The position numbers were made by a program, and so were the translations under genes. Below, piece after piece: positions 1 to 4,377 of a DNA stretch of 64,000 nt. Origin of the DNA: Elusimicrobia bacterium GWA2_66_18 (GTDB lineage: Bacteria > Elusimicrobiota > Elusimicrobia > UBA1565 > UBA9628); assembly GCA_001799675.1 (NCBI GenBank), contig MGTX01000014.1, positions 25,290 through 89,289 of the forward strand, in the 5' to 3' direction. The first letter of the stretch is position 1. The number at the start of each line of letters is the position of its first letter. The notes under the pieces are model-generated. The model searched no databases and was not told where the DNA came from. It was given only the letters and a program-made list of their open reading frames with translations.

Positions 1-103
1 TCCAGCGCCCCGGCGCCCCGCCGCTGTAAGCATCGCCCGCGACCGGTCCGCAGCTACGCAAACGCCGCGCTCTCCGTCGTCAAGGCCCACAATTTTTTGG
101 GCC

Positions 104-131
104 TTGACTGAAAAAAAATCGGAGCTATACT
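104..131 (+). promoter_or_regulatory. sigma70-type promoter TTGACT-N16-TATACT
   Basis: TTGACT at 104-109 and TATACT at 126-131 with 16 bp between. A palindrome AAGGCCC..GGGCCTT (83-105 area) overlaps the -35. Confidence 0.65.
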
Positions 132-138
132 CAATATC

Positions 139-363
139 GTCACCCGTCCCGAACCCGGTGTCGGAGGCGCTCAAGAAGGACCCCGGGTTGAGGCTGAGGC
201 CGGAACCGGAGGTCGGAGTCGAAGGCCGTCGTCGTGAGGCGCCCGTCGCGGGTTTGCCGAGACGCGTCGGGCCGCCTGGAGTGGCGGGCGTTACGGATTC
301 GGGGCGGGTGACTTACGAGGCGCTGAGACGGTCCGATTAAAAGGACGCCTGTCTCGGCGCCTC
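139..363 (+). ncRNA. candidate structured small RNA (6S-like architecture possible)
   Basis: Starts about 7 nt after TATACT. GTCACCCGTCCCGAA (139-153) pairs with TTCGGGGCGGGTGAC (298-312), a 15-bp closing stem. A second 13-bp stem lies at 317-329/351-363 with an inner GTCC/GGAC. No convincing CDS on either strand. Confidence 0.45.
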
Positions 364-370
364 CTGTCCG

Positions 371-1087
371 TCAGGGAAGGCGCCAGTAGTGGTGCCACTG
401 AGGCACCACCCTCACGTCCCGCACGACCCGCCTGGCCAAGTCCTCGAAGCGCAGGCAGCGCGCGGGCGCAATCGCCTGCGCGCCGTGCAACGGGGTCGCC
501 GGCTGGAGCACCAGAGGCAGGCGCCGGGGCGCGCCGCGCAGGAGCGACAGCACCCGGCGCCACTCCCCCTCGGTCGAGAGCGAAGTCAAAACAACCTTCA
601 CGAAAGTCCCGCGCGGGGCCTCTTTTAGGAAGGACTCGTGGAGGTCCCAACTCTCGCGCCCCGTGGAGGACGGGAGTTTAATGTCCATGGCCACCGTGTC
701 GCAGAGCGGGGCCAGGGCGCGCATGGCGGCCGGCAGCGTCCCGTTGGTCTCCAGATAATTCTCCAGCCCCCGAACACGCACCCATCCCATCAGGGGCCTC
801 AAGAACGCGGCGTGAAGGAGGGGCTCTCCCCCCGTCCAGGAGACGCTGCGATGCCGACGCCCGCGGTCTAAACGCGCGATGGCGGACTTCACGAACCCGG
901 CGCTCACGACCTTGCCGGAGGGGATCGGAATCGCGTCCGGCTCGTCGCAATAGTCGCAGCGGAGGTTGCATCCGCCCAGGCGCACGAAGATCTGCCTCTC
1001 GCCCACGCGCAGGCCTTCGCCCTGAAGCGAGGAGAAGACCGACACCATGCGGGCGCGGGACTCGTCGGAGAGCTTCAGCGCCCTCAA
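371..1087 (-). CDS. queE: 7-carboxy-7-deazaguanine synthase (radical SAM)
   Basis: [31 protein letters not shown] radical-SAM motif; directly downstream of queC. TTG start at 1087 overlaps the queC stop; ATG at 1048 is the alternative. Confidence 0.9.
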
Positions 1088-1758
1088 AGCGCGGGATCCT
1101 CGACGCCTGCTTCCCGGAAGCCCTTCTCGCGGAGCCGGCACGAATCGCAACGGCCGCACGGCCGCGAGCCCCCGGCGTAGCACGACCAAGTTAAAGACAA
1201 CGGCGCTCCGACCTTTTCCGCCAGGCGCACGATCCCCTTCTTGTCTAGACGCAGCAACGGCGCCAAGACCCTCAGCGGTTTCTTCTCAGTCCCGCGCTTC
1301 GTGCCCAGCTTGGCCGCTTTGGAGAAGGCGTCCAGAAACGAAGGGCGGCAGTCGGGATAGCCGGAGTAATCGAGGGCATTGGCGCCGATGACGATCGCTC
1401 TCGCCCCGACCGAATCCGCAAGCGACGTCGCGAGGGCGAGGAAGATGGTGTTGCGTCCCGGGACATAGCTGGAGGGGATTGCGCCGCGGCCGATCCTCGA
1501 TAGAGGCATTTCCGGCAGCTTCAGGCGGCGATTCATGAGAGACGAGCCGGACAACCACGGCAAAGACAACGACACCTCGCGCAAAGGCGCCCGCGCTTTC
1601 TTCGCCACGGCCCGGGCCGCAAGGAGTTCGCGATCATGCCGTTGACCGTACCTGATGGAGAGCGCCACGAGCCGGTAGCCCTTCTTGCGCGCCCAGAAGA
1701 GACACGTCGTCGAATCCAGACCGCCTGACAGGAGGATGACCGCCGTCTCCTTCTTCAT
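1084..1758 (-). CDS. queC: 7-cyano-7-deazaguanine synthase
   Basis: [25 protein letters not shown]-loop; C-terminal [18 protein letters not shown] zinc site. Confidence 0.93.
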
Positions 1759-2543
1759 GCCGAGGCTTTCTTGGCCGGGAACTTGCCGTCGAGGGCCTCG
1801 CGGCATATCCGGATCACGTCGGCGCTGAAGTTGCCCTTGTCGATCATCCAGTTGATGTAGCCGCGGTCCTGAGCGACCACCTCGCGCAGAGTCTTGCCCT
1901 TGTGCTTGTTGCCGAAGCCGAACGCGGCCTCGCCGCTCTTCCAGACGAACTTCCCCTCCGCGTCCACGCGGCCGGGGTCCACGGCGGAGCAGAACGCGTC
2001 TAGGCCCGCCGCGTCCTTGGGCAGGTCCGCGTAGCGCTCCACCTGCGCGAAGAGCACCTCGGCCGTGGCGCGCGCGTCCGCCTCGGCGCGGTGGCCTCCG
2101 GCCAGGTCCTTGCCGCAGTAGAACTTGTAGGCGGCCGTCAGATCGCGGCGCTCCTTGCGCGCGAAGATCGTGAAGGCGTCCACGACCCGCTTGCCCGCCA
2201 GCGGCCAGTCGAAGCCGGCGCGCTTGAGTTCGTTGGTCAGCAGGGGGATGTCGTACTTGACCGCGTTGAAGCCTGCGAGGTCGGCGCCCTCGAAGAGCTC
2301 CAAGAGCTTCGGGGCCAGGTCCTTGATGGCGGGCGCGCCTCTCACCATGTCGTCGGTGATCTTATGGATGGCCGTGGCCTCCGCCGGGATGGGAACGCCG
2401 GGGTCGACCAGCGAGGAGAAGAGGCTCCGGCTCCCGTCGGCCTCGAAGCGCAAGACGCAGACGTCGACGATGCGGTCGCTCTGCGGGTCGGCGCCCGTGG
2501 CCTCCAGGTCGAAAATGCAGAGGGGTCGGTCGAGCTTCATCAT
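1755..2543 (-). CDS. DnaQ/ExoX-like 3'-5' exonuclease
   Basis: CIFDLEATGADPQSDRIVD (DEDDh motif), GFNAVKYDIPLL, HRAEADARAT; C-terminal HKGKTLREVVAQDRGYINWMI. Confidence 0.8.
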   Translation of the reverse strand: MMKLDRPLCIFDLEATGADPQSDRIVDVCVLRFEADGSRSLFSSLVDPGVPIPAEATAIHKITDDMVRGAPAIKDLAPKLLELFEGADLAGFNAVKYDIPLLTNELKRAGFDWPLAGKRVVDAFTIFARKERRDLTAAYKFYCGKDLAGGHRAEADARATAEVLFAQVERYADLPKDAAGLDAFCSAVDPGRVDAEGKFVWKSGEAAFGFGNKHKGKTLREVVAQDRGYINWMIDKGNFSADVIRICREALDGKFPAKKASA

Positions 2544-3022
2544 CGGGAAGGCTCCAGGGAGGGGACAGTCGAGGTGGAAGACAAGACGGGCGGGATCACG
2601 AGCAGGGGCATCCGAGCCGGCGCGGTCGAAGCCATCACCTCTGGGGAGCCGGCGAGGCGGCACTCGTAGACAAGATGGATGAACGGCTCGATCTTGTAAT
2701 GCTCGCCGCCATGCTGGATGTTGACGGCCAGGTCGTCGCCCACGTAGGGCGCGTCGGCGTCCTGGCGGGCGTACTCGTCGACGACGCGCGGCTCCAGGTC
2801 CTTGCCGCAGTTCTTGCGCATGAGGCGGCGGGCGTGCCGCCGGCGGCCCTTTACGAACCAGGACCAGCCGTCGAGGGAGTAGCGCACGCTGCCTCCGCCG
2901 AGATCCACATAACCCACTTCTTTGACCGGACCCTTGCGGGGACGGCGGCGCTCCACGCTCTCGGCCACGCAGGCCGAGAGCAGGACGGCGGCGGAGGCGG
3001 CGAGGAGGACGGCGCGTCTCAT
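2540..3022 (-). CDS. hypothetical lipoprotein
   Basis: MRRAVLLAASAAVLLSACVAES lipobox. Confidence 0.6.
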   Translation of the reverse strand: MRRAVLLAASAAVLLSACVAESVERRRPRKGPVKEVGYVDLGGGSVRYSLDGWSWFVKGRRRHARRLMRKNCGKDLEPRVVDEYARQDADAPYVGDDLAVNIQHGGEHYKIEPFIHLVYECRLAGSPEVMASTAPARMPLLVIPPVLSSTSTVPSLEPSR

Positions 3023-4377
3023 GCGAGGGGTTGAAGCTCCCCGCCCGCCGCGGCCGGGCGCGCGGAGGCGACGCCGGCCAGGCGCTCGGCGCAACGCTTG
3101 CCGTCGAGGAGGGTTTCCTCCATGAAGGAATATTTCCAGCCCCCGTAGCGGCCGATGGATTGCGCTCCGAGCTTGGCTAGGTGGCGCAAGATCGCGTTCA
3201 CGGCCGGGGTGCGGGCGAAATCATAGACGACATAACCGACCGGGATGGGCATCCAAGCCATGGTCGAGATCTCGTCGCGCTTCTTCAAGATCCCGGCCTC
3301 CCGCAGGCCGTCGAGGATCGAGACTTCGAGCTTCGCCGTGTCCACGCGCGCGCCGCCCGGCCGCGCGACCTCGACGTAGAGGGCGCTGTGGCCCGCGGGC
3401 GCCGCGGCGGAAGAGAAATTGCTGGAGAAGCCGACCCGGTAGAACGGGAACTTCTTCTCGGGGAAATAGACCCAGTGCCGGTCGCCTACGACCGGACGGG
3501 CGACGCCCAGGTTGAGGTTCCAGACGGCGTTCCAGCGCAGGCGCCCTCGGGCTTGCCGCACCGCGTCCGGCAGGGGACCCGCGAGGTCCAGGAATGTCGT
3601 CAGCGGGAGGGTGTTCACCAGGCGCTCGTAGCGGACTTCCCCGAGGCCCGCGACCTGCGCGACCTTCCACCGCAGGTCCACCGCCGTGACGCGAGCGCCG
3701 GTGCGGACCACGCCGGGCTCCAGGCGGCGGGCCAAGGCGTCGGGCAGGGCTTGGATGCCGCCGCGGACCGGGTAGCGGAAGGAGGCGTTGTAACCGAAGC
3801 GCTTGTTCTGGTCGGCCAGCGCGCCGTAGAGGACCTCGGTGGCGGAGGGCTTGGGCACGAAGCGGCCCTGCCATTCGGTCGTCATCCGCGCCAGACTCGT
3901 CTGCCAGAGTTTCTCATTGTACGGCCGCATGAAATGACGAGTGATGCCGTCGCCGAAGGCGGCGCGGCACCAGGAGAGAAAATCACCTCGCTTCGACGGA
4001 CCGCTCGGCCGGTGCACCGTCTCGAGGAAGCCGGCCACGCAGTCCACCACCACGCCGAGGGGAAGGCCCTTCGTATTGGCCTGGAACGGGTAGCGCGTCA
4101 TGACCCCTTTGGAAAAAATCGCCGCCCGGCGCTCGTGGACGGCGAGATTCCCCTTAAGCAGGTCCAGGACGTATCCCTTGCCGTAGGGGTCGTGGAGATG
4201 GAGGAGGTGGCCCGTGTAGTCGAAGGTGAAGCCGTTCTTCGTCACGGAGCCGGCGACGCCGCCCACCGTCGGCTTCGCCTCCACGACCAGGCGCGAGCGC
4301 ACTCCGAGCCCGAGCAGGTGGTGGGCCGTCGAGAGGCCGGCCAGGCCCGCGCCCAGGATGAGGACGTCGGTCTTCAT
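3019..4377 (-). CDS. FAD/NAD(P)-binding amine-oxidase-like protein (protoporphyrinogen oxidase/UGM-like)
   Basis: MKTDVLILGAGLAGLSTAHHLL...VVEAKPTVGG dinucleotide-binding motif; GGWKYSFMEETLLDGK C-terminal FAD segment. Confidence 0.8.
   Translation of the reverse strand: MKTDVLILGAGLAGLSTAHHLLGLGVRSRLVVEAKPTVGGVAGSVTKNGFTFDYTGHLLHLHDPYGKGYVLDLLKGNLAVHERRAAIFSKGVMTRYPFQANTKGLPLGVVVDCVAGFLETVHRPSGPSKRGDFLSWCRAAFGDGITRHFMRPYNEKLWQTSLARMTTEWQGRFVPKPSATEVLYGALADQNKRFGYNASFRYPVRGGIQALPDALARRLEPGVVRTGARVTAVDLRWKVAQVAGLGEVRYERLVNTLPLTTFLDLAGPLPDAVRQARGRLRWNAVWNLNLGVARPVVGDRHWVYFPEKKFPFYRVGFSSNFSSAAAPAGHSALYVEVARPGGARVDTAKLEVSILDGLREAGILKKRDEISTMAWMPIPVGYVVYDFARTPAVNAILRHLAKLGAQSIGRYGGWKYSFMEETLLDGKRCAERLAGVASARPAAAGGELQPLA

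Follow-up and report, generated by a model that had tools for sequence, protein, structure and literature searches.

Positions 104-370 of the window (the whole stretch of 64,000 nucleotides analysed here, G000:C14:25290-89289, G000 being the source genome) are best explained as a member of a family of free-standing small RNA genes, which at present sensitivity is confined to a single order and whose product most likely binds a protein; we assign this reading a probability of about 0.6. Conservation and covariation support the element as a genuine RNA gene and, with it, the original prediction of a promoter-driven, structured small RNA belonging to a lineage-specific or new RNA class, while its designation as an order-specific, autonomously transcribed sRNA relies on transcription predicted from the sequence. 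The promoter would drive an RNA whose closed 5' domain is variable and whose 3' hairpin, which carries a bulge, is constant (Table 1). By the searches described below the family is new, matching no RNA family in Rfam and being confined to one order of Elusimicrobiota, a poorly known phylum. To our knowledge, no regulatory RNA has been characterised from this phylum, and a literature search for such RNAs returned nothing relevant.

Table 1. Features of the small RNA locus and its surroundings, in window coordinates.
Feature	Position	Strand	Basis or remark
mutL 3' end, upstream neighbour	1..29 (stop codon 27-29)	+	Pfam MutL_C, 2e-34, on upstream extension (L022)
Inverted repeat CAAGGCCCA (81-89)/TGGGCCTTG (98-106), overlapping the -35 box	81..106	+	Sequence
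Sigma-70-type promoter TTGACT (104-109)-N16-TATACT (126-131)	104..131	+	Sequence, promoter scan, kept in relatives
Predicted small RNA transcript, ~225-235 nt	138..370	+	Fold z -4.4; homologues in genus
Closing stem P1, 5' arm	139..157	+	Fold, alignments, covariation
Conserved core hairpin in body, GACGCCGRGUUGAGGCYGAGGCYGNAACCGGCG in most relatives	179..213	+	Alignments A1, A3
Optional GC-rich arm of body	238..290	+	Lacking in G005, G006, G015
Closing stem P1, 3' arm	294..312	+	Fold, alignments, covariation
Constant 3' hairpin: 13-bp stem, 3-nt bulge on the 3' side, 4-bp upper stem, loop	317..363	+	Covariance model R3
queE-like radical SAM gene, convergent downstream neighbour	371..1057 (stop 371-373)	-	Pfam Radical_SAM, Fer4_12

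The convergent radical SAM gene downstream of the element is followed by queC (PF06508) and is probably queE, judging by its fold family and neighbour. The TTGACT-N16-TATACT promoter, already recognised in the original prediction, proved to be the sole site passing the promoter scan in window positions 1-4000, with 0.2 expected from shuffled sequences, and transcription from it would start at about 138-139, right at the 5' arm of the closing stem. Fifteen full-length homologues retain a TTGAC..TATACT promoter a few nucleotides upstream of that stem; the element thus has, as an autonomous bacterial sRNA gene should, a consensus promoter of its own, kept across relatives. The palindrome noted over the -35 box does exist as an inverted repeat, and half-sites resembling it are visible by eye in several relatives, but its interpretation as a specific operator is weakened: promoters of this lineage generally have the -35 box extended as GGGYC-TTGAC, also upstream of unrelated protein genes (by the look of their sequences, TetR-type regulators, mraZ and lexA), and the same extended promoter (GGGYCTTGAC) stands at a c-di-GMP-I riboswitch locus. 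Because the same GGGYC promoter precedes unrelated genes, an operator is not needed to account for the palindrome.

Two further sets of loci with strong promoters were encountered. L166 (G000:C3:50942), L167, L168, L173 and L179 combine such a promoter with a conserved hairpin (CGGGACAGAGGGG..) and a U-tract, with a c-di-GMP-I riboswitch inserted between promoter and hairpin except in L173 and L179; these loci possibly represent a second unlisted small RNA. At L183/L194 (G045:C9:34069 onward), about 1 kb from a copy of the new RNA and on the opposite strand, a promoter of the same type precedes a long GC-rich stretch of degenerate GUUGCCGU/GUCGUUGC-like repeats with no evident gene.

The fold of the window copy agrees with the layout originally described. 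The 15-bp stem 139-153/298-312 pairs completely, with one G-U, begins at the predicted start and encloses a 5' domain of about 175 nt. Positions 138-312 fold at -97.3 kcal/mol (z -3.5, with 0 of 200 shuffles equally low) and positions 138-370 at z -4.4, scores to be read with the caveat that GC-rich genomes give strong folds anyway. Within the body, the core hairpin has an altered stem base in the source genome, and one of its pairs carries a compensatory GC to AU change among the relatives. The second hairpin foreseen at 317-363 is likewise found, its bulge being asymmetric and 3 nt long. It scores 59.8 bits against the family hairpin model, which itself contains this sequence, and is terminator-like, its U-tract being weak in the source genome (CUCCUGUCCGUC) and present in most relatives. 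As anticipated, no coding sequence is supported: among 15 relatives the length of the body ignores frame and no frame is consistently open, and on this variation in length and frame a small coding gene was rejected.

Homologues were detected by blastn in 17 of the 19 genomes of the genus (g1), the source genome included. The genus members G001 and G018 lack the element, as do several other genera, so either it is not essential everywhere or the assemblies miss copies. In alignment A3, consisting of homologues with the variable middle removed, 97.6% of cells are paired, 7 pairs have changed on both sides (12 cells), and the covariation score exceeds that of 500 of 500 shuffles. Compensatory changes in the closing stem, whose absence the original prediction had named as the outcome that would speak against it, were found in 3 of 15 pairs within the genus; when the sister genus g11 is added (stem there CCCGUCCUGAGUCCGG/CCGGACUCAGGACGGG), both-side changes extend to 9 of 16 pairs and 29 cells. 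Sequence kinship inflates the shuffle tests, and the slid-register control, in which pairing of the closing stem drops to at most 54%, agrees with them. The 3' hairpin was modelled alone (R3; 24 sequences from seven genera and two families) and shows compensatory changes in 10 of 17 pairs (39 cells, 0 of 500 shuffles reaching its score), its structure having been drawn from the same alignments that were used for the pair counts. In g11, leader and spacer form an additional outer stem, and those of one copy pair with each other better than with their counterparts in other copies (permutation p 0.0018).

The two parts of the RNA differ in how they are distributed. Scans with R3 placed the 3' hairpin in 33 of the 56 genomes of the order, representing three families (E <= 0.01), and, at E <= 1e-4, in 31 of 342 Elusimicrobiota genomes, all from this one order, with no hairpin outside it. 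Its shape and bulge are kept across relatives while the loop letters vary. The closed 5' domain, by comparison, ranges across the order from about 175 nt down to nothing: the part upstream of the hairpin measures about 120-210 nt in g1, long copies in g11 comprise a 16-bp stem, a body and the extra outer stem, and the basal relatives G037 and G043 (family f3) and G045 (family f2) have only a small hairpin as 5' domain. In the short copies (G028, G293, G206, G308, G309, G034, G197, G020) the 3' hairpin begins 6-10 nt past the -10 box, and the transcript would therefore be the hairpin alone, with neither a body nor a conserved single-stranded stretch. This span from a full RNA to a lone hairpin is the most informative feature of the family and points to the hairpin as its working part. 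One copy, L156 (G308:C435), has a 5' leader enlarged by tandem repeats of about CCGUUCGUCG. A 43-nt blastn match in G044 was judged to be due to chance, as this genome has no R2 or R3 match.

Copy number and genomic position are likewise variable. Most g1 genomes have one copy and g11 genomes have several, including tandem copies at G028:C75:36139 and 36423 and at G293:C173:968 and 1261. Contig C12 of G034 has a pair of copies, separated by 2.7 kb, that share an identical stretch of exactly 130 bp reaching from shortly upstream of the -35 box to the end of the U-tract, in unrelated flanks; G002 has near-identical copies, and G028 diverged paralogues homologous from about the -35 box to the U-tract. 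The site downstream of mutL is common to G000 and G004 (g1), G029 (g12), G206 and G309 (g11) and G045 (family f2), that is, to two families, which suggests that it is ancestral. Apart from mutL and queE, the neighbours of most copies differ even within one genus, and conserved neighbour genes were dropped as a clue to function.

The favoured reading is that the new RNA acts in trans, sequestering or guiding through a protein bound to the bulged hairpin, which would both terminate transcription and serve as the docking element, with the 5' domain as an accessory, interchangeable module. Protein binding is likelier than mRNA pairing because the shape and bulge of the hairpin are kept while its loop varies, and because the short copies amount to the hairpin alone. 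An ordinary base-pairing, trans-acting sRNA, seeded by the core of the body and ended by the 3' hairpin as a plain terminator, would accommodate the strong promoter, the terminator-like 3' end with its U-tract in most relatives and the core hairpin conserved in g1, and multi-copy sRNA families such as Yfr2 and the CsrB-type siblings are well known. However, such an sRNA is hard to reconcile with copies that have no body or conserved single-stranded stretch, and a plain terminator would require far less conservation of sequence, shape and bulge than this hairpin shows; we regard this explanation as unlikely. About equally unlikely is a small mobile non-coding unit of the MITE or REP type, in which promoter and hairpins move together and are kept for transposition or as a passenger. 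The identical 130-bp units in unrelated flanks, the near-identical copies in G002, the promoter-to-U-tract homology of the G028 paralogues and the changing neighbours inside one genus are all what such a unit would leave behind, but terminal inverted repeats and target duplications were looked for around the G034 units and none was seen, g1 genomes are usually single-copy, the mutL-adjacent position is common to two families, and promoter and hairpin pairing have been preserved through divergence at the level of the order, something of no use to a mere passenger. A bolder extension of the protein-binding reading would see in the family a new RNA class that works through its bulged hairpin of about 55 nt, which would be self-terminating and would bind a core protein (possibly RNA polymerase, RNAP, in a lineage that has lost 6S RNA), the RNA spreading as a whole promoter-to-terminator unit and carrying an interchangeable 5' domain; we offer it as a tentative idea of low probability.

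The 6S-like layout, from which the original prediction started, does not translate into 6S membership. The Rfam 6S model RF00013 found nothing in the window at the gathering threshold, in positions 1-600 at E <= 5 or in the source genome, and R1, a phylum-specific model derived from 20 Elusimicrobiota 6S RNAs, yields noise at best on loci of the new RNA with filters off. The phylum's own 6S is one long irregular hairpin that ends straight in a U-tract, whereas the new RNA has a branched body and a separate 3' hairpin. Of the 6S layout, the new RNA has the closing stem, and its consensus fold shows no conserved central bubble. Synteny is equally negative, 6S lying between zapA and rarA in the loci examined from other Elusimicrobiota classes and the new RNA between mutL and queE. 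Rfam 6S occurs in 55 of 296 phylum genomes and in none from the source class; zapA stands immediately next to rarA in 12 of 12 source-class genomes examined, the source genome included (L072-L083), and R1 gave no hit in 39 of 40 class genomes, the source genome among them. Judged by these scans, 6S in the source class is lost or diverged past detection, and the new RNA is no recognisable 6S descendant. Separately, G055:C6:87905-88012 (L071) gives a weak 19-bit R1 match away from zapA and might be a relocated, diverged 6S.

Two explanations would nevertheless tie the new RNA to 6S. A functional stand-in, that is, an RNAP-binding RNA in a lineage without canonical 6S, has precedents in Ms1 and CoRP (PMC9130861, PMC11077062) and would fit the absence of Rfam 6S from the class, the closed zapA-rarA gap, the near-complete silence of the phylum model (at most one weak match among the 40 class genomes) and the rod-like long form with its long closing stem, to which g11 adds an outer stem and a 5' bulge. 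Yet the RNA is limited to one order while the whole class is apparently without 6S, the long rod is missing from basal and short copies, there is no symmetric central bubble, the family is multi-copy with exact-unit duplication, and 6S model scores on it are noise. Both its confinement to one order and the existence of short forms argue against a 6S job as its main role, and we consider this explanation about as doubtful as the mobile unit. That the element is a highly diverged 6S gene relocated from zapA, as the vacancy of the zapA-rarA site and the original layout argument might suggest, is very improbable, given that Rfam and phylum-model searches were all negative, the architecture is unlike the phylum's 6S and short forms exist.

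Other known families fared no better. No locus of the new RNA that was scanned, in the window or among the related loci, matches Rfam, the sole hit (Six3os1_5, E 2.3) being a chance match. The proposed check for signal recognition particle RNA was negative as well, with no match of the bacterial small SRP model RF00169 to the new RNA; RF00169 was also not found elsewhere in G000 at E <= 0.001, and that RNA has either diverged or is not included in the assembly. A CsrB-like sponge was rejected, since GGA motifs, compared by eye, are not conserved between copies.

The family offers covariation support, ready models, a putatively ancestral mutL locus and natural variants running from a full RNA to a single hairpin, a range that makes a good set for locating the working part. 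Taken with the loss of 6S from the zapA-rarA site in this class, the family also makes it testable, outside Actinobacteria, what takes over from 6S once a lineage has lost it.

Among known systems, Ms1 and CoRP of Actinobacteria are, like the new RNA, structured and lineage-specific; they bind RNAP where canonical 6S is missing, CoRP being 516 nt long and the ends of Ms1 bearing extra short hairpins (PMC9130861, PMC11077062). The new RNA likewise belongs to a lineage lacking 6S, bar the weak 19-bit candidate in the distant class member G055. RNAP binding, measured for Ms1 and CoRP, would be a prediction for the new RNA, which is likened to them by description. With 6S RNA itself (RF00013, ssrS) it shares a promoter of its own, a length of about 200 nt and a long closing stem, and differs in having no sequence or covariance match, in its multiple copies and short forms, and in its locus. 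Multi-copy sRNA families, such as Yfr2 of cyanobacteria and the CsrB-type siblings, consist of dispersed paralogues with their own promoter and terminator and a copy number that varies between species. The new family resembles them in these respects, its terminator being a predicted one, but its constant part is a terminal bulged hairpin rather than a loop motif or GGA repeats, it has been duplicated at least once as a whole promoter-to-terminator unit, and some of its copies are predicted to consist of the hairpin only.
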